Source: an uncultured Chlorobiaceae bacterium (GTDB taxonomy: Bacteria > Bacteroidota > Chlorobiia > Chlorobiales > Chlorobiaceae). Taken from it: a stretch of 64,000 nucleotides of DNA. The stretch covers positions 1 to 64,000 of the forward strand of contig CAIPMW010000065.1 in assembly GCA_903866255.1 (NCBI GenBank). Direction: 5' to 3'. The notes under the pieces are model-generated. The model searched no databases. It was not told the origin of the DNA and saw only the letters and a program-made list of their open reading frames with translations. The position numbers and the translations under genes were made by a program. Shown here piece after piece: positions 6,378 through 58,849 of this stretch. Position 1 is the stretch's first letter; every line of letters begins with the position of its first letter.

Positions 6378-6448
6378 AGCCATACCTCTTAATATTGTTG
6401 GGGGATGTGAATTCCGTTGTTCCCCGGTGTCCCGTGTTTTCCGGGGTG

Positions 6449-6488
6449 TCCCGTGTGTCCCGTGTATCCCGTGTATCCCGTGTGTCCC
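6449..6488. repeat. tandem 9-bp repeats (TCCCGTGTN) in the nifK-nifE gap
   Basis: Four contiguous units TCCCGTGTR at 6449, 6458, 6467 and 6476 are followed by a partial unit. An imperfect outlying copy lies at 6430-6438 and a related TTCCGGGG stretch between them. They occupy the transcribed gap between nifK and nifE and so would lie in the mRNA. The repeat encodes a three-residue periodicity if read (VSR/IPC), but no gene is supported here. Confidence 0.75.
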
Positions 6489-6529
6489 AGGGCTTCACCC
6501 TGGGCTATTGTATGTCGCCCCTTCGGGGC
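6486..6529. repeat. double-hairpin intergenic element in the nifK-nifE gap
   Basis: Two perfect hairpins stand side by side: cccaggg (6486-6492) with ccctggg (6498-6504) around a five-base loop, then gcccc (6517-6521) with ggggc (6525-6529) around TTC. Just downstream comes ACCCCGAAGGT. The block resembles a dispersed intergenic element I have seen in genomes of several phyla, often misannotated as small ORFs; that resemblance is from memory. In the nif transcript it would form stable RNA structure between nifK and nifE and could alter mRNA stability or stoichiometry. Confidence 0.6.
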
Positions 6530-6593
6530 TTAAGAACAATGGTTTTATATACCCCGAAGGTGCAGCATTTTTCACCCTTCACCCTTTTTTCTC

Positions 6594-7976
6594 TTACATC
6601 ACCAGTTCAAACTTCTCCTCAAGCGCATCACGATCCTGGCGATCCATGATGGCATTCAGAATCTTTTCGAGCAGTCTCAGGCTGCCGCTGTACCCGATAT
6701 TCGGGAAGTAGCTGTGGCCAATTCTGTCAAGAATCGGGAAGCCAAACCTGATGAACGGAATATCCTCGTCGCGGGCCATGTATTTGCCGTAAGTGTTTCC
6801 GATCAAAAGGTCGACAGGCTCGTTCTTCATCCACTGGTGAAGCAGGAACATGTCTGCCTGAAGCCCGCTCTTGAAGTTTGTTTCCGGTGACCTCTCGTCA
6901 AGAAGCTGGCGCATCTGCTTCTCAAATTTCTGTCCAGGTGTGCCGCTGACGATATGTACTGGCTTCATGCCCAGGTCAAGCAGGAACTCGGTGAGCGGCA
7001 AAATCTGATCCGGGTCACCAAAGAGCGCAACCCGCTTGCCGTGCAGATACTGCTCCATGTCGCACATCACATCAACCAGTCGTCCTCGGTCAGCCGTAAT
7101 CTCATCGGGTACTGTTACTCCGGCAACTTTGCTGATTCCCATAATGAAGCGGTCAGTTGCTGTGAGGCCGATTGGTATGTCGAGCGTTTCAAACGGCACC
7201 TTGCACTTCTTTTCAAGCGCTATTGCCGCAGGCTCGGCACTGATGCTTCCGAGCGCCAGTGAAGCAAGGCTGTCGCCGCTGCTCTTCAGCTCTTCCACCG
7301 TTGTGCCACCTTTTGGATAAAAGACATGCTTGCCCGTCTGCGGTGCATCAAGAACGTCTGAAGTGTCAGGAAAGAGCACAATGTTGATGCCCATCACCTT
7401 CGCCAGTCGTTTGATTTCGCGCATATCCGAAGGCTCCATCCATCCGGCAATAATGTTGTACTGGCTCTTTTTGACACCGGTTGACTCCGCAAATTGTGTC
7501 GCTATGCCAGCAACCATGTTTGAGTAGCCGGTGACGTGCGAACCAACAAAACTCGGCGTGCTGGCATAAATCACATACTTGCCTTCTGGAATTTTACCGT
7601 CATCACTTGCCTTTTTCGTGATCTGCTGCAAGTCATCACCGATAGTTTCGCTGAGGCAGGTTGAGTGCACCGCGATGATATCCGGATCATAGACCGCGAA
7701 GATAGTGTCAATGGCGGCCAGAAGGTTTGCCTGGCCACCGAACACCGAAGCTCCCTCGGTGAACGAACTTGTTGCCGCCATAACAGGCTCTTTGTAGTGG
7801 CGGGTCAGGGTGCTCCTGTGATAGGAGCAACACCCTTGTGAGCCATGGCTGTGAGGCAGACAGCCGTGAATTCCAAGCGCGGCATACATGGCACCGATCG
7901 GCTGGCAGGTCTTTGCCGGGTTGATCGTCAGCCCCTCGCGCACTTTAACCTCTTTTGATGTGTGTCGTAATAGCAT
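6594..7976 (-). CDS. nifK: nitrogenase MoFe protein beta subunit NifK (short form)
   Basis: This 460-residue subunit pairs with NifD to form the MoFe protein. The P-cluster ligands are C24 (KTCQPIGA), C49 (HGSQGC) and C107 (STCLSETIGDD). Compared with Azotobacter NifK, where the first ligand is residue 70, the N-terminus is shorter by about 45 residues, as in Clostridium-type enzymes. It follows nifD by 27 bases. The length fits a complete gene. The short N-terminus together with the long NifD places this nitrogenase in the Chlorobi/Clostridium-like group. Confidence 0.97.
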   Translation of the reverse strand: MLLRHTSKEVKVREGLTINPAKTCQPIGAMYAALGIHGCLPHSHGSQGCCSYHRSTLTRHYKEPVMAATSSFTEGASVFGGQANLLAAIDTIFAVYDPDIIAVHSTCLSETIGDDLQQITKKASDDGKIPEGKYVIYASTPSFVGSHVTGYSNMVAGIATQFAESTGVKKSQYNIIAGWMEPSDMREIKRLAKVMGINIVLFPDTSDVLDAPQTGKHVFYPKGGTTVEELKSSGDSLASLALGSISAEPAAIALEKKCKVPFETLDIPIGLTATDRFIMGISKVAGVTVPDEITADRGRLVDVMCDMEQYLHGKRVALFGDPDQILPLTEFLLDLGMKPVHIVSGTPGQKFEKQMRQLLDERSPETNFKSGLQADMFLLHQWMKNEPVDLLIGNTYGKYMARDEDIPFIRFGFPILDRIGHSYFPNIGYSGSLRLLEKILNAIMDRQDRDALEEKFELVM

Positions 7977-11736: not shown

Positions 11737-13140
11737 TTACCTGTCAGCAAGTTCAGGCAGCAGCTTCATGAAATGCTCAATATTATCAGGATAGGAAACT
11801 GACAATGCTGAAAGTGTCCGCTGGAATTTTGTATAGACAACATTTGTCCTTCTGAGTTCATAACTTTCATTTTCTGCGTTTATCACCGGTTCAAGAGCGT
11901 AAATAAACCAGGCAATTTCTGCCTCCTGTTTTTCAACCGGCACCAGATTCGGAAGTGCTTCGAAGTAGTTCCGATCAATGGCAACAGCAATTTTTTTATT
12001 CCATGAATTCAGAATAGAGCCCTTGAAGATAAGTTGAGGCACAAGGCTCTCTCTCATTGCTGAAACATAATCGGATTGAGGGTAGTTGGACTGTGCTGAC
12101 CAATCCATCAATGAGTTTGTCTGTGGATCCCTCATGTAAAAATCGAATGGATCGCGCACATTTCCGTCGATAAAAGCTGACTGGATTTCGATAGCCCCAA
12201 AATCAGTCATTTTACCCGTGTCGTCATAAGCGACAAGAACAACATCAATATTACCAGCAGATTTACCATAAGCATCAGTTAACTCTACCTCTGTCAGAGA
12301 GCTCCAGCGAACCCCTTCCGGGAAAAAGAATGAAGCGGCATCATCAGTAATAAGCCACTCTTCGCGAAAACGAACAGGGCATGTAATCACTGGCTTATTA
12401 TTATGCAGAAGACTGCATACTCCAAGAGGATTATTTGGGTTCTCGTTGGTGCAGTTGGGAACGCGGTTATTGAAAGGGCAATGGCGGTGAGAGCGGTACC
12501 GTTGTGCCTTGGAAGAGAGGTCGGTCGTTGTAAAACCAAAAACCTCAGCTAACGGATTCTTGAAAGTGTTCATGCTGTAAAAATTTTGCGACGCGGTGGG
12601 TTGGAAGTGACTTATAGAGCTGCTTTTCGTTACCTGTTGCACAAGGCCAATATTGTGGTGAATCGAAGTGAACGGTCGTGTGCCAGTACTCATGGAATCA
12701 GGCGAAGTTGCTGGAGAGTTGGCTGGTTGCAAGCCATCCGCAGAATCCTCTGTTCTCTCTGCTTCTGGTACATCCGGCTCCATGAAAGGGACAATATCAC
12801 TGAACATATCGCGAGGCAACTCAGCCTGAATGGTAGATTCGGTACTGCCGGAACCACCATTATCAAGAGTATTATCCTCTGAAGCGAGCTGAAAGGGTGC
12901 CAATGGTGTCTTGGCCATAACACGGGGTGCAGAATCCTGATACGGTCCACCGTTTACAAGATCCATACTCTGCTGCAGTTGATCCACATGCAACTGCTCG
13001 TTCTTGCTTATCTGCAAGAGTCTCTTTTTGATATCCGCATCATCCACGTCTGCCGCGAGCGTAAAAAAAACATCCCTTTTTTGTTTTTTAATCTCAGCCA
13101 TGGAGGAGAAAAAATCGAGCAAATCCTTATTAATAAACAT
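11737..13140 (-). CDS. NotI-like restriction endonuclease with helical N-terminal extension
   Basis: This 467-residue protein resembles the NotI endonuclease family in its second half. After NPLAEVFGF (195-203) come four cysteines, C221 (CPF), C230, C242 (GVC) and C254 (TCP), the same pattern that holds the iron in NotI. The PD-(D/E)xK core follows: D299 (NIDVVLVAY), then E318 and Q320 in GAIEIQ. NotI itself is about 380 residues; here about 190 residues precede the match. The first 60 residues form two predicted helices (FTLAADVDDADIKKRLLQIS, then NEQLHVDQL) that look like half of a ferritin/rubrerythrin bundle, followed by a Ser/Pro/Thr-rich linker. The start overlaps the preceding small gene by 11 bases. 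No DNA methyltransferase is visible in the window, so a normal restriction-modification role is unproven. Confidence 0.75.
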   Translation of the reverse strand: MFINKDLLDFFSSMAEIKKQKRDVFFTLAADVDDADIKKRLLQISKNEQLHVDQLQQSMDLVNGGPYQDSAPRVMAKTPLAPFQLASEDNTLDNGGSGSTESTIQAELPRDMFSDIVPFMEPDVPEAERTEDSADGLQPANSPATSPDSMSTGTRPFTSIHHNIGLVQQVTKSSSISHFQPTASQNFYSMNTFKNPLAEVFGFTTTDLSSKAQRYRSHRHCPFNNRVPNCTNENPNNPLGVCSLLHNNKPVITCPVRFREEWLITDDAASFFFPEGVRWSSLTEVELTDAYGKSAGNIDVVLVAYDDTGKMTDFGAIEIQSAFIDGNVRDPFDFYMRDPQTNSLMDWSAQSNYPQSDYVSAMRESLVPQLIFKGSILNSWNKKIAVAIDRNYFEALPNLVPVEKQEAEIAWFIYALEPVINAENESYELRRTNVVYTKFQRTLSALSVSYPDNIEHFMKLLPELADR

Positions 13141-13548: not shown

Positions 13549-13758
13549 TTACCCCCAATGTTCGGAGGCTGGCAGGCAAGGCCCTCCGGTGGTGCTTTCC
13601 GAATCTTGAAGGGCGATGAACTCATCCCAATTCACCTTGCTGAGCTCCTCCAAAGTGAACGAAAACCCCTCTTTCCTGATGAATGCAAGAAAACGCGCAC
13701 TCATTCTCGGGTCATTTTTCAATTTCGCAATGAATCTTCTTGCTTGTTCTTCCGACAT
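13549..13758 (-). CDS. Nif11-type leader peptide, candidate RiPP precursor
   Basis: This 69-residue protein has the Nif11 leader pattern: MSEEQARRFIAKLKNDPRMS, then a helix and GFSFTLEEL at 31-39. Nif11 domains are known as leader peptides of ribosomally made, modified peptides in cyanobacteria and others, and also occur beside nif genes. A Gly-Gly at 58-59 (STTGG) is followed by a ten-residue tail, PCLPASEHWG, with one Cys and one Ser that could be modified. No lanthionine synthetase, radical SAM modifier or C39 peptidase transporter is seen nearby. The start codon lies 47 bases inside the 3' end of the GH8 gene, so it belongs to the exopolysaccharide operon. Confidence 0.75.
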   Translation of the reverse strand: MSEEQARRFIAKLKNDPRMSARFLAFIRKEGFSFTLEELSKVNWDEFIALQDSESTTGGPCLPASEHWG

Positions 13759-15004
13759 AGCCCACCCCGCATATAAGGTTTCGAGATGAAAAAAATCTAC
13801 CCAAAGGTGAACAGATTTTTTTCAATAAAAGTTCACCAGTGAGGCGTATTTCATTACGAAAAGATGTGTTTTTAGCGTGATATTTGGTGGAGAGCGGAGG
13901 ATACTTCAGTTTACCAGCTAATTTTAAGCTGTTATAGTACTCAGGTAACCAGGAGATACTGTTGATGTAGTAGTCATTATTATCGTTGTAATATAATCCC
14001 TCATTGTTTTTCCGAATACACTGTCTGAGGCGTTGCAGTACTGCCAGGGAAAGGGGTGAGCCAGCAGTCTCTGTTGCAGCGTATACTGCACTGTAAAATA
14101 GGGCATTTTCATAAGTTTGACCCTTTGATGGTTCAGCGTACTCCTTTTCGAAGGATGCGGCAAAATGACGAAGCACATCAAGGGCACGACTATCCCCATA
14201 GAGATAATAATCAGCGGCAATTCTCAAGGGAATCCTCACAGCATCCCATCCATAGTCAAGGGGTTTTCCTGGCAGTTCAACAAAACTTCCATTCTGGTCA
14301 ACAGCAATCCAGTCAGGTACCCCCCCCTTTTTTTTTAGTTCACCCGGGGACGCCTCAAGAAGATGTCCGAGGATAGAGTATGTGGTATCGACAAGATCAA
14401 GCCAGCGCTTGTCCCCACTGACCTCAAAAAAGAGCTTGAAATGAGAGGGCGCATAGTACGAGGGGTTCAAGGCAACAACGTTACCCTCACGGTTGTTCTG
14501 TTTCGGCCATGGAAGTAAATAAAGTTTTCCATTAATGACCGATGTCTCTTGATCAAGAACACTTTTGAGCACTTCGCTCGCAAGCGTCACATAGTGCACA
14601 TCATCCCATTTGCGGGAAGCAAGAATAAGGCTGTATGCATAATCAATGTCAGCATCTGATGCTGACTTTCTGTCGATGACATGTCCATTTTCAAAGTGCC
14701 ATGCCAGCAACCTGTCACCATGTGATATCTTTCTGGAGAGTTGAGCTTCCGTCCAGTCCAGGCACTCATCAAAAGTTTTGCGGTCATCCAGCAGCACAGC
14801 GCGAAGCATCCCGTAGGCCTGACCCTCCGAAACGGTATCATTGTTGTTTTTAGGGCGAAAAACCCTCCCTTGACGAATAAAGGTCTGTTTATAGTGAGCC
14901 CATGAGGCCTGGGCAATCTTTTCAGGGTTCTGGGGGACTGAGGAGCAGTTTATTGCAAGTAATGGAAAAACCAAAACCAGAAAAAGCAAAACTGACTGCT
15001 TCAT
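13712..15004 (-). CDS. glycoside hydrolase family 8 (BcsZ-like endoglucanase)
   Basis: This 430-residue exported enzyme of family GH8 probably trims a beta-linked glucan as it is made. E60 in SEGQAYGMLRAV is the expected catalytic acid and D117 in DADIDYAYSL the base region; DYGWDAVRIPLR at about 280 is also typical. The N-terminus MKQSVLLFLVLVFPLLAINC is a signal peptide with a possible, atypical lipobox (AINC). The last 40 residues, after STKYHAKNTS, extend past the usual GH8 domain. It overlaps the synthase gene by four bases and the Nif11-type gene by 47. Family members act on cellulose, chitosan or lichenin, so the substrate is not fixed. Confidence 0.88.
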   Translation of the reverse strand: MKQSVLLFLVLVFPLLAINCSSVPQNPEKIAQASWAHYKQTFIRQGRVFRPKNNNDTVSEGQAYGMLRAVLLDDRKTFDECLDWTEAQLSRKISHGDRLLAWHFENGHVIDRKSASDADIDYAYSLILASRKWDDVHYVTLASEVLKSVLDQETSVINGKLYLLPWPKQNNREGNVVALNPSYYAPSHFKLFFEVSGDKRWLDLVDTTYSILGHLLEASPGELKKKGGVPDWIAVDQNGSFVELPGKPLDYGWDAVRIPLRIAADYYLYGDSRALDVLRHFAASFEKEYAEPSKGQTYENALFYSAVYAATETAGSPLSLAVLQRLRQCIRKNNEGLYYNDNNDYYINSISWLPEYYNSLKLAGKLKYPPLSTKYHAKNTSFRNEIRLTGELLLKKICSPLGRFFSSRNLICGVGYVGRTSKKIHCEIEK

Positions 15005-16515
15005 TTTCTGTTGAAATGAAAAAGTCCACTGAGTAGAATAAGCTGAAAACCCATCCAGAATACATTGACGGCAAGTATGCTTTGAACACCATCATTCGTC
15101 AATAGCCGCATAACGCCCCAGGAAAATGTTACAAACACTGTAGTGATCAGCAACAACTGTGGCCAGAGGCTTTTCCAGGGAACATTGGATGAGTTCCCCT
15201 TTGGAGTGACCTGAAACCCTTTTTTACTGATATTGAGTATGCCAACAATTGATGCACTCAAATATACAGGCATGGAGAGAGCTGTCAGCATCTGCACCTT
15301 GATCATATTGCTGAGTTTATATTTTTTCTTGACCATGCTGCCGTAAAAAACAAGATTCGAGAGTATGAAAAACGGAATAAATGTTATCGAGTAGAAAAAT
15401 GAATCAATATTATACGAGTTGATATCCAGAAAAATATACAGCATTGGACCTGCCATCAGAATAAAATATGCTATCCCTATAAAATAGTAGGTTGTTGATA
15501 TGAAATACTCAAGCCACTGTTCTGGGCGTAGCGACTTTATATCGGTAAAAAAGATTTTTACCAGCTTGCGGAAGAGTTGTGAAGTGCCCAACGCCCAGCG
15601 GTTCTGCTGGGTAAAGTATGCTGCCAAATCCTCCGGAGCCATACCGAATGTATAGGCTTTGTGAATAAAAAATGATTTCCAGCTTTTCGTATGGAGCTTC
15701 AGTGAGGTGGCAATATCCTCTGTGACGGTCTCTTCATCAAAATTGCCAACACTGTTCAGAGCAGCGCGACGGAAAACAACATTGGTGCCACAGCAAAACA
15801 TCGCCTTGTTTATTGTTTTTCCAAGACAGATATACTCATAAAAAATAGCCTGCTGGTTATGCGCAATCATCGCCACAATGCTGTCGTCACCATTTGAATA
15901 GAACTGGGGGGTCTGTACAAAGGCAAGGCGATCATCACCCTCAAGAAAAGGTACAAGTGTCTTCAAAAACACTGGCATGGGGTTCTGATCAGCATCAAAG
16001 ATAGCAATATATTTTTCATTGAGAGTTTTCAGCACCTCGTTGATCATGCCAGCTTTTGCCCCGCGGTTGTCGCTGCGGGTAAAGAGGTTGACTCCCAGTT
16101 GTTCTGAAAGTTCCTTTGCTTCACGCTTGTAACTTTCAATGGTTGAGTCATCAAGCAGATAGACATTTTTGTTCTTGTATGCAATGTTCTTGCATGTCAG
16201 GAGTGTTGTCTCAATAATATCCCTTGATTCGTGCCGAGCCGGTATCAGAATCGCTACAGAGGCACCCTTGCCGGGGCTCTTCTGCGGTGGGGATAATGGA
16301 CGCAAATTCTCACGAAGTACATCAACAAAAAAGAAAAACGAATGGAACAAAATAAATATCTCGGCACAGAAAAATATCAGACTGAATACGAGTTCAAGCG
16401 TAGTAAATGGCGCAATTAAGATGTAGTAAATGCGGACGCCAACATATATGGCGAGCAGAAGCAACAGCAAAACTATCTGTAGAATCAGAAACCAGGAATT
16501 TTTCTTGTCACGCAT
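15001..16515 (-). CDS. membrane glycosyltransferase family 2, cellulose-synthase-like
   Basis: This 504-residue processive synthase of the BcsA type polymerises a sugar-nucleotide into a beta-glycan and probably threads it through the inner membrane. Two membrane helices precede the GT domain, which shows DDS (122-124), DAD (174-176), TED (265-267) and QQNRW (303-307); four to five further helices follow. It ends at about residue 504 without a PilZ domain, so c-di-GMP control like that of BcsA is not expected in this polypeptide. It lies between the porin gene (26-base gap) and the GH8 gene (4-base overlap). No bcsB homologue is seen. Confidence 0.88.
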   Translation of the reverse strand: MRDKKNSWFLILQIVLLLLLLAIYVGVRIYYILIAPFTTLELVFSLIFFCAEIFILFHSFFFFVDVLRENLRPLSPPQKSPGKGASVAILIPARHESRDIIETTLLTCKNIAYKNKNVYLLDDSTIESYKREAKELSEQLGVNLFTRSDNRGAKAGMINEVLKTLNEKYIAIFDADQNPMPVFLKTLVPFLEGDDRLAFVQTPQFYSNGDDSIVAMIAHNQQAIFYEYICLGKTINKAMFCCGTNVVFRRAALNSVGNFDEETVTEDIATSLKLHTKSWKSFFIHKAYTFGMAPEDLAAYFTQQNRWALGTSQLFRKLVKIFFTDIKSLRPEQWLEYFISTTYYFIGIAYFILMAGPMLYIFLDINSYNIDSFFYSITFIPFFILSNLVFYGSMVKKKYKLSNMIKVQMLTALSMPVYLSASIVGILNISKKGFQVTPKGNSSNVPWKSLWPQLLLITTVFVTFSWGVMRLLTNDGVQSILAVNVFWMGFQLILLSGLFHFNRK

Positions 16516-16541: not shown

Positions 16542-18692
16542 TTAAAAAAACCACCGGATTTCTGTTTTAAGCAGCTTGTCTTCATAGAAAGACTTTGTAG
16601 CCCAGGAATACTGTCCCTCAATTGATGAGGAAAAGCGGTTACTCCAGTCGTGGTATAACATTGCTCGAATCTGGTGCGAGATATTATTCTCGGGTTCAGC
16701 AATAATTTTGTATGAGGCTGAATAATATGTTTCATTGACACCCTGAAAAAGCTCATCATTAAAATAACTGCGGAATTCCATACCTAATGAATGAGTGTTA
16801 AACGATGAGGGGCTCCAGTAGCTATGAGGAGTCGAATTGGAGAAGCCATAGTTCTGAAACCGGTATGTAAGGTTCAGTCGCTTCTGACCAAAAAGGAGAT
16901 GAGACGTAACATCACCGCCAGTGGTATGACCACGGTTGCCATCTGAATAGTGAGCAAAATCGTAATCCAATCCGGCATTCCAGTTTCGATAACCGTCATA
17001 GTTTAAGCGATATTGTAATCGATTTCTCCTGAGTTGTTTACGAAATGTTTCGGCATTATCAATCACCTCTTCACGGCGAAACGCAAATCCAAGGTGAATG
17101 TTGTTCAGTGGTTCGCTTTGAGTTTCAACAAAGCCTGTATGAGATCCTGCTGAATTTCCAGAGTTGACGTGATAGCTGTACGCCCCCCGAACCAGTATAT
17201 CAGGGATGTTCCGGTATTCAAAACCAGTTGTCAAGTTATTTTGAGTGACGTTTCCCGCACGACTTTCAAAACGGAAGGATTTGTTGTCGTAGCGCAGAAA
17301 ACCGGAAAACTGATCGTCATAAGGCCAGGAGATTGATGAGTAGATTCCTGTATAGGTGACATTCATGCTTTTCCACTTGCTGTTGACATCGAAATATTCT
17401 GCACCGCTCTGGAGCGTCGGCATGGCAGAGAGAATGCCGGTTTTCTTTTGCGCAAGTGCTGCCTGCTGATGTTCCGGCATGTTGGTTAACATCAGATTAA
17501 ACGTATCCCTTGCCTCTTTCCAGTGTGCGCTCTGCATAAAGAGCTGGCCAAGGTCAAAAAGCGCTTCAGGCTCATTTGGTTCAATCGCAAGCCACTCCCT
17601 GTATGCCTTTACCGCAGGTCGATAAGCGCTGCGGTAATAGTTTTTCTTGGCGGTTGCTTCAGCCTTGAGCGCCTTGCTCTCAGGATAAGCGACAAGTCCT
17701 TCATCGTACGCAGCAGTTGCGTTTCCATATTTTGCCATCCATCCAAGTACGCGGCCCTTTTCGCGATATGCCTTCAGTCGAAAATAATCGATCCGATGGG
17801 CATTGTCCAGGGTAATAAGTTTGTCATAATTGACAAGAGAGGTTGCATAATCTTGTTGCCAGCTCGCAATTTCAGCTTTAATCAGCAATGCTGTTTGGTT
17901 GATCTTATTTTTAGGTGAGTGCTTGATCAACTCATCACATGCCTGTAACGCTGCCGCAAAGTCCTGCCGTCCCAAAGCAAAATATGCCTTGGTTTCCAGA
18001 ACATAACTGTCTGCAGGATAGTACTTTTCGACCGAGTCCAGTAACTTTTTTGCTTCCGCCAACTCTTTGACTGAGGAAAGCTTATTGGCAAAAGCGATTG
18101 CGTTATCTTTCTGTCTGTTTTTTTCAAAAAGTTTCTGGTAATATACACCTGCGTCCACATACTGTTTGTTGCTGAAGAGCACATCAGCATATTCACGCTG
18201 AATAGAATCACTTATCTCACTGGGAGTGACAACAGTATCAACAAGTTTCAGCGCTGTATCCCAACGTCCAGTCCACGAATAGGCCCTGGCCGCATTAAGG
18301 AGCAGTTGCGTGTTTTCAGGTTCAATTTTTATCCACTGTTCATACAATGGAAGAGCCTTTTCGGCTTTTTGCGCGGACAAAAAAAGATCAATGACTTTTT
18401 TCAAAACGAACGTATCCGTCGGGTATAACTCAACGAGTCTGGCAGCGACCTCCTCACCGTCTTGATAGGCTTTGTTGGCAAAGCAGGCGGAAGCAAGTTT
18501 CAGTGTTGATGTCTTGTCAAGAGCGCCCGCCTTGAACAGATCCATAGAGACTGGTGCAATGGATTGAATTTCCTGAATCCGTTTTTTTTGATTTTTTGAT
18601 TTACTTTGCCCGGCAGCATGGCTTACGGCAGGTTCACTCACAATGGCAATTCCTGCCATGGCTACTAAAAAAAATGCATTACCTGATTTCAT
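16542..18692 (-). CDS. TPR/beta-barrel outer-membrane protein of the exopolysaccharide operon
   Basis: This 716-residue protein has a signal peptide (ending about SHAAG), TPR repeats from about residue 60 to 420 (for example PLYEQWIKIEPENTQLLLNA and WLAIEPNEPEALFDLGQLF), then a barrel-like C-terminal region from about 430 that alternates aromatic residues and ends in RWFF. The layout is that of BcsC, PgaA and YaiO-like export porins, in which periplasmic TPRs feed a beta-barrel. It is first in the minus-strand operon and probably exports the polymer made by the neighbouring synthase. The barrel is shorter than that of BcsC. Confidence 0.82.
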   Translation of the reverse strand: MKSGNAFFLVAMAGIAIVSEPAVSHAAGQSKSKNQKKRIQEIQSIAPVSMDLFKAGALDKTSTLKLASACFANKAYQDGEEVAARLVELYPTDTFVLKKVIDLFLSAQKAEKALPLYEQWIKIEPENTQLLLNAARAYSWTGRWDTALKLVDTVVTPSEISDSIQREYADVLFSNKQYVDAGVYYQKLFEKNRQKDNAIAFANKLSSVKELAEAKKLLDSVEKYYPADSYVLETKAYFALGRQDFAAALQACDELIKHSPKNKINQTALLIKAEIASWQQDYATSLVNYDKLITLDNAHRIDYFRLKAYREKGRVLGWMAKYGNATAAYDEGLVAYPESKALKAEATAKKNYYRSAYRPAVKAYREWLAIEPNEPEALFDLGQLFMQSAHWKEARDTFNLMLTNMPEHQQAALAQKKTGILSAMPTLQSGAEYFDVNSKWKSMNVTYTGIYSSISWPYDDQFSGFLRYDNKSFRFESRAGNVTQNNLTTGFEYRNIPDILVRGAYSYHVNSGNSAGSHTGFVETQSEPLNNIHLGFAFRREEVIDNAETFRKQLRRNRLQYRLNYDGYRNWNAGLDYDFAHYSDGNRGHTTGGDVTSHLLFGQKRLNLTYRFQNYGFSNSTPHSYWSPSSFNTHSLGMEFRSYFNDELFQGVNETYYSASYKIIAEPENNISHQIRAMLYHDWSNRFSSSIEGQYSWATKSFYEDKLLKTEIRWFF

Positions 18693-57835: not shown

Positions 57836-58690
57836 TCAGGTGAATACCTTTTCGTTGAGCGTTGTGGCGGTGCCTTCGAGCTGTGGCACCTGGGCATATC
57901 CCATCGCTTTGATATTTCTTGCTACTTGACTATCCAGGTTTTTCCGCGTGATTGTTACCCCTGCGCCTCTTAATACTTTGCAGAAGTTAAGGGTGAAGAG
58001 ACCTCGATACGTACCGTCGATGGAGGCTTCGGCTGAGGTTTGGTTGTCGCGGCATCCTGCCCAGAGGACGTGAGTAAGCTCTGTTGCAATTTTTACCTCT
58101 TTCACTCCATTTCTCTGTTTGAGCAGACCGCGCACCGGTAGTGAAGGATTTGTGTCAAGGAAGAAGCCCCAATCGAGAGGTGGTTGAACGAACCGATAAC
58201 TGACACTCAATCTTTCGTCGGTGGCAGCAAGAGCAGCCAACTCTCTGGTTCCGCTGCCGGAAAAGCATGAGTCGAGAATGACATCAAGACTGACCTCTGC
58301 CGGAAGAGTGGCAAAGGCGTTGCGTAAATCGTCATCCTTGATCATTCCTGCGGTTGCAAAGTCGTGTGGACAGATGGTCTCATCTTTTCCATCCGGTTCA
58401 TCTCCCTCAACATCGATCAGTTGTGAACCATGGCCTGAATAATAGAATACCAGCGCGTCTCCGGGTCTTGCTCCGGTAGTCAGCCATTGCAGTCCAGCCA
58501 TGATCGCTGCCCTGGTTGCTCGAACATCGGTCAGAATCCGCATTGTCGTAGGGCTTGAAGGCACAATACCAAGCGCCGAAAGGGTGTTGGCCATATCCTG
58601 AACATCGTTCACGCATCCGCGCAGATCAGGCCCCCCTGATCCGGCAGGGGCATAATCATTGATTCCAACAAGTAAAGCTTTTTTTGCCAT
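57836..58690 (-). CDS. metacaspase-type peptidase (C14 family)
   Basis: This 284-residue cysteine peptidase has the caspase fold: MAKKALLVGINDY at the start, catalytic H87 in FYYSGHGSQ, C142 in ILDSCFSGSGT, and DGKDETICPHDF as the acidic pocket region that favours Arg/Lys at P1. There is no signal peptide or extra domain, so it acts in the cytoplasm. I use the ATG at 58690; the 33 codons upstream are not conserved. Its neighbours (pgi and the LRR gene) suggest no role. Confidence 0.9.
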   Translation of the reverse strand: MAKKALLVGINDYAPAGSGGPDLRGCVNDVQDMANTLSALGIVPSSPTTMRILTDVRATRAAIMAGLQWLTTGARPGDALVFYYSGHGSQLIDVEGDEPDGKDETICPHDFATAGMIKDDDLRNAFATLPAEVSLDVILDSCFSGSGTRELAALAATDERLSVSYRFVQPPLDWGFFLDTNPSLPVRGLLKQRNGVKEVKIATELTHVLWAGCRDNQTSAEASIDGTYRGLFTLNFCKVLRGAGVTITRKNLDSQVARNIKAMGYAQVPQLEGTATTLNEKVFT

Positions 58691-58849
58691 AAGCGCCACT
58701 CCATTGTTTAACGGTGAAAAAAAACAGCACGGTATAGTTTCGATTGTGCCGCGACGGTGTCGGATGGCGTAAAAAAACCATCTTGTCATGATAATAAAAA
58801 TGCCTTACAGCGCAAAATTTTAATATCAGCCATGACGGGAAGTTTGTTG

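Follow-up and report, generated by a model that had tools for sequence, protein, structure and literature searches.

The window, by which we mean the whole stretch of 64,000 nucleotides of DNA from an uncultured Chlorobiaceae bacterium that was analysed, contains an open reading frame of 467 aa with an ATG start at 11737-13140 on the minus strand. Its closest relatives were found in Chlorobium and Chlorobiaceae genomes. The protein is a fusion of a short N-terminal domain (N), a linker and a NotI-family domain, and the start of its gene is overlapped by 11 nt by an upstream gene for a small protein, here termed P. Genes for a Nif11-domain peptide, a GH8 endoglucanase, a GT2 protein and a TPR protein lie upstream of P and the fusion on the same strand, and the genes downstream are, from our reading of the sequence, presumably a nif cluster. 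The features are:

11737..12564, minus strand: NotI-family domain of the fusion, residues 193-467 plus stop, with Cys4, D299, E318 and Q320 (Pfam, Foldseek, alignments)
12565..12930, minus strand: linker of the fusion, residues 71-192, disordered and fast-evolving (pLDDT <50; dN/dS mostly 0.3-1.2; 44% S/T/P/N/Q)
12931..13140, minus strand: N domain of the fusion, residues 1-70, a two-helix hairpin (3-31, 35-62) from AlphaFold2, alignments and stand-alone homologues of 65-101 aa
13130..13369, minus strand: P, 79 aa, predicted two-helix hairpin (4-34, 40-73)
13549..13758, minus strand: Nif11-domain peptide, 69 aa, C-terminus LPASEHWG (Pfam)
13712..15004, minus strand: GH8 (BcsZ-like) endoglucanase (PF01270 E=4.8e-48; BcsZ model below cut-off)
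15001..16515, minus strand: GT2, cellulose-synthase-like catalytic subunit (CelA model E=1.1e-75, short of its cut-off; GT2 Pfam models)
16542..18692, minus strand: TPR protein (TPR matches; PgaA model E=6e-17, below cut-off)

A sequence-only reading had described the protein as a NotI-like nuclease with four cysteines, a D...EIQ core, a low-complexity linker and a helical N-terminal extension, and all of these features were recovered. The profile search that it had proposed matched residues 209-423 to the NotI family (PF12183; E=3e-54, 184 bits where the cut-off is 22). With the predicted model as query, Foldseek returned significant hits to NotI entries only (3bvq, E=1.4e-9; 3c25, E=2.3e-8). 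Neither profile A1 nor the very divergent protein L024 retrieved a NotI structure in sequence searches. The AlphaFold2 model shows the N-terminal helices 3-31 and 35-62 at a pLDDT of about 85-93, a linker at about 23-32, and a folded domain from about residue 193 onward. Residues C221, C230, C242, C254 and D299 showed no variation in an alignment of 29 relatives. D299 is carried by a predicted strand at 294-305 and E318-x-Q320 by another at 311-320, and these residues match the PD-(D/E)xQ catalytic core, in which the K is replaced by Q in the NotI family (PMC4081073). The fold, the Cys4 site, D299 and the ExQ motif are thus common to NotI, its stand-alone relatives and the window domain, the latter being mostly 55-65% identical to stand-alone proteins from Chlorobium, archaea and planctomycetes. 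Unlike these enzymes, the window protein is fused to N and the linker, has no methyltransferase, is acidic and lacks an arginine conserved throughout the restriction-modification (RM) enzymes; many of its relatives, again unlike the stand-alone enzymes, have altered catalytic residues. No report of an N-NotI-type fusion was found in a literature search to which most subscription papers were inaccessible.

The N-terminal extension had further been likened to two helices of a ferritin-like bundle. The two helices were confirmed by prediction, while the ferritin likeness is weak by sequence (DUF2383, E=0.11 in Pfam; EncFtn, 5n5e, E=0.028) and plausible by fold, with target-normalised TM-scores in Foldseek of 0.83 for EncB, 0.61 for EncFtn and 0.46 for PA2169, none of them accompanied by a significant E-value. 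Judged from the model, a ferritin-like fold is plausible for N, bearing in mind that a two-helix hairpin resembles many bundles. N has in common with EncFtn, EncB and PA2169/DUF2383 the helical hairpin and, in many copies, an ExxH motif, which reads NEQLH in the window. The conserved ExxH iron ligands of a ferritin-like diiron protein were not found, as other N copies have NQQQQ, DEERQ, DEQQD or GERQL at this position. A further difference from EncFtn and EncB is that encapsulin (PF04454) was detected in none of 65 genomes of the genus, in a search whose positive controls worked, and a classical encapsulin cargo was ruled out on this ground.

The upstream genes recall the bcs and PNAG synthase operons, in which a GT2 synthase, a GH8 endoglucanase and a TPR protein are encoded in one run together with small accessory genes. 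Each of the three gene kinds is present near the fusion, although in contrast to those operons each scores below the curated equivalog cut-off (CelA, BcsZ and PgaA, respectively), and no PilZ match was found in the GT2 protein. From its sequence the TPR protein is possibly a BcsC/PgaA-like outer-membrane exporter. N and P correspond to no named Bcs subunit. At 430 aa, the GH8 frame of the window (13712-15004) exceeds most of its relatives (about 376 aa) by about 54 residues and reads into the Nif11 frame, an extension that resembles a lost stop or a frameshift.

Nif11-derived peptides (N11P, TIGR03798) are natural-product precursors, and the family has been reported in Chlorobium luteolum and as paralogous sets (Haft et al., 2010; PMC2887384). 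The window peptide has the same leader-type domain as the N11P family but differs in its C-terminus, which is a conserved LPASEHW instead of a clear GG-cleaved core. Next to it no modifying enzyme was seen, and none was obvious beside the other Nif11 loci that were read. Across Chlorobium, Nif11 paralogues are scattered and end in conserved aromatic tails (GYEHWxG, GYEYWVG, LPASEHW). A peptide ending in LPASEHW adjoins 15 of the 17 fusion loci and none of the 13 N-P loci that are free of NotI. It is absent beside the fusions of G273 and G265, which weakens the candidacy of the peptide as a strict antitoxin, though both of these fusions carry the change E284A.

The absence of a methyltransferase, which the sequence-only reading had pointed out, held for the window (none among the 26 ORFs scanned with Pfam, a set without the nif-like and small ORFs) and, for relatives of the cognate enzyme, for the whole genome, the vicinity of the fusion included. 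The pairing of endonuclease and cognate methyltransferase that is typical of type II RM systems is therefore not found for the window fusion. It is found for the stand-alone NotI-family proteins (about 293-306 aa), for which the gene directly following encodes an adenine methyltransferase of the D12 class (PF02086, E=1.4e-12) in Chlorobium, in Methanosaeta and Methanothrix MAGs, in a planctomycete, in Scalindua and on four viral contigs; truncated or contig-edge loci (L036, L131, L040, L042) are uninformative about the neighbour. Since the viral contigs (L156, L157, L158, L159) carry a NotI-family endonuclease together with a D12 methyltransferase, the RM pair is mobile. In four fusion genomes (G006, G019, G023, G031) the RM system, and with it the methyltransferase, is present as well, while two others, G003 and G029, gave no D12 match at all, the latter being the nearest relative of the window genome, about 90% complete and with an intact catalytic motif. 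The D12 genes of the window genome, on its contig C1, differ from the cognate enzyme. Two D12 matches fall within one 647-aa open frame there (G000:C1:1687-3336), possibly, to go by the sequence, a double methyltransferase.

P was found in all 28 of the Chlorobiales genomes that carry the GT2 synthase and in one of the 70 others, out of 98 genomes of the order; the P profile behind this count (A6) has P of G001 and of G162 among its members. The one additional P genome (G223), which brings the total to 29, has an N gene broken by a stop. With a narrower P profile and a search with the window protein, the figures within the genus were 26 of 28 against 1 of 37 (Fisher p=1e-14, uncorrected for kinship); as the co-occurrence is limited to one genus or lineage, such counts are not independent events and relatedness inflates the p-values. 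The 28 synthase genomes divide into 17 with a fusion and 11 with an N or N-like gene but no NotI, and absences are weak in the six fusion genomes that are less than 90% complete. NotI-free N (65-101 aa) and P lie mostly beside the GT2/GH8/TPR cluster, as in L132 and L133, where the order is P-N-TPR-GT2-GH8 and N overlaps the TPR gene, or in G001 and G162, where divergent P-like and N-like genes directly follow GH8. Two NotI-free N-P pairs lie away from the polysaccharide cluster, namely L055, a second pair in G026, and L130 in G223. N is followed at one NotI-free locus by a further small P-related gene, the third there (L050, 10192-10386). From this distribution N and P are seemingly previously undescribed, obligate partners of a cellulose-like synthase. 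A role of P as a dedicated nuclease inhibitor was ruled out because P accompanies N where the nuclease is absent.

P and the fusion are located at the polysaccharide locus in nine of the 17 genomes and elsewhere, as a convergent pair, in the remaining eight, in which the synthase is nevertheless still present. In the tree the convergent-pair fusions formed one group (97/97). A single fusion event is the simplest reading because the three labels given to relatives require just two changes in total, the fork uniting all fusions being itself poorly supported.

The eight convergent-pair genomes contain an inverted duplication in which both NotI domains are conserved and the remaining parts have decayed in a complementary manner. 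In copy 1, N is intact and is preceded upstream by a relic of the last ~20 codons of P; this relic is clear in L043, L044, L045, L048 and L129 but more strongly degraded in L046, L127 and L128. In copy 2, P is intact and N has decayed; this N scores 40-60 bits against the N profile as compared with 126-142 bits for intact N, where both were scored, and shows dN/dS >1 in one of two pairs tested. In G028 the duplicated module is distributed over two contigs (L047, L048). Each of these genomes thus retains both NotI domains in conserved form but only a single P and a single N, which indicates that each of the two small proteins is still needed in one copy. The arrangement is compatible with a NotI heterodimer formed from the duplicate pair.

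Pairwise dN/dS of the NotI domain in the fusions was 0.05-0.14 at dS 0.2-1.4, and equally low values were obtained for copies with Q320H and for second copies whose own N has decayed. N gave about 0.04-0.2 in first copies and the linker mostly 0.3-1.2. No stops were found inside fusion copies. To locate changes, 91 columns invariant among 14 stand-alone proteins (the very divergent L024 being left out) were followed into the fusions: 48 are unchanged in every fusion and six are changed in every fusion. One of these six is R365, which is S or N in all 26 fusion rows, 25 of them distinct as L035 and L126 are the same gene; L024 has T here. Q320H occurs in 16 rows, that is in all convergent-pair copies, E318D in four, E284D in four and E284A in two, so that 20 of the 26 rows carry Q320H, E318D or E284A. 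The changes from E to D may be mild. Cys4 is intact in every fusion copy, and E284, D299, E318 and Q320 are all intact in the window, L031, L034, L035/L126 and L052. As a crude proxy, net charge was computed over residues 191-455. Stand-alone proteins span -5 to +9, with a median of 1.5; fusions located at the synthase lie between -11 and -7, and those of the convergent pairs range from -9 to +1, which overlaps with the stand-alone values.

Taking the sequence evidence together, we consider it probable that a restriction-enzyme domain has been recruited by exaptation into an accessory complex of a polysaccharide synthase, where it serves for binding or as a scaffold, its cleavage being weakened or lost. 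On this view the cellulose-like exopolysaccharide synthase of Chlorobium would have N and P as small accessory subunits, two helical hairpins that probably pair as a four-helix bundle. In one lineage the endonuclease gene of a mobile type II RM system (NotI family, working with a D12 adenine methyltransferase) would have been fused behind N via the flexible linker, with the methyltransferase left behind and the fusion presumably having proceeded in this direction. Strong purifying selection would then have retained the NotI domain as a folded module, probably dimeric and stabilised by metal, while its active site and positive charge eroded. Its present job would most likely be binding or scaffolding in a synthase-linked complex, through a protein partner or a weak nucleic-acid contact; site-specific cutting would be slight or absent, and there is perhaps an effect on the polysaccharide. 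Because the window copy keeps E284, D299, E318 and Q320, we infer the loss of cleavage rather than take it as demonstrated. A more far-reaching version can be put forward only tentatively: that the type II endonuclease became a non-cutting structural or sensory subunit of the synthase, acting as a heterodimer in some species, with the Nif11 peptide as a dedicated third component.

The sequence-only reading had instead envisaged an orphan nuclease controlled by a partner, or used for defence or host killing. Part of this is borne out, in that the methyltransferase is missing and a partner gene exists in P. An active nuclease with either of these tasks is not supported, given the association of N-P with the polysaccharide-synthase operon, where it also exists without NotI, and the loss from the fused domain of R365, of positive charge and, in several lineages, of catalytic-motif residues. 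In a related explanation, N-P would tether an active enzyme of the NotI type to the synthase complex; the enzyme would cut incoming DNA there, self-DNA being spared through site avoidance, weak activity, or control by P or the Nif11 peptide. The intact catalytic residues of the window and the few copies like it, the strong purifying selection and the Nif11 peptide beside most fusions fit this, and for the window's own copy an active tethered nuclease is possible. As a general account we regard it as unlikely in view of R365, gone from all fusions, the Q320H, E318D and E284A changes, the acidic shift, the lack of a cognate methyltransferase in G000 and of any D12 gene in the intact-motif G029, and the P that also accompanies NotI-free N. 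The erosion of the active site in several lineages and the nearly neutral linker could alternatively mean that the joining of NotI to N was accidental and that the domain, with no selected role of its own, survives only because N is needed. Such hitchhiking is difficult to reconcile with the low dN/dS of the NotI domain, also in second copies with decayed N, or with the absence of stops, and appears quite improbable.

Two further rivals assign other tasks to the small proteins. N-P could be a two-subunit ferritin-like iron or redox unit that regulates the NotI domain, as the fold similarity to EncFtn and EncB and the ExxH of many N copies would suggest; with that motif varying among copies and encapsulin missing from all 65 genomes, we hold this to be very unlikely. 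The succession of domain, variable linker and payload, accompanied by two helical partner proteins, is also reminiscent of an interbacterial or polymorphic toxin, with N for delivery, NotI as payload, P as chaperone and the Nif11 peptide as immunity protein. Where polymorphic toxins join one trafficking domain to varied payloads, N was found alone, as in 11 genomes, or with NotI only; the peptide is missing at two fusions and the catalytic site has eroded, which together make a toxin highly improbable.

Restriction enzymes are usually regarded as mobile, addictive and rapidly lost genes. If the exaptation proposed above is correct, 17 genomes of a single genus have apparently retained such an enzyme in disarmed form, linked to a surface-polysaccharide system. 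Sister species still have the stand-alone type along with its methyltransferase, and hence proteins that are ~60% identical are available for a direct comparison of cleavage.

Two other features were noted elsewhere in the window. A caspase-domain (Peptidase_C14) protein is encoded at 57836-58789 (E=2.5e-30), and a short repeated motif, read as VSRVSRVSRVS in small ORFs, is found at 6395-6711 at the end of a nif-like gene.
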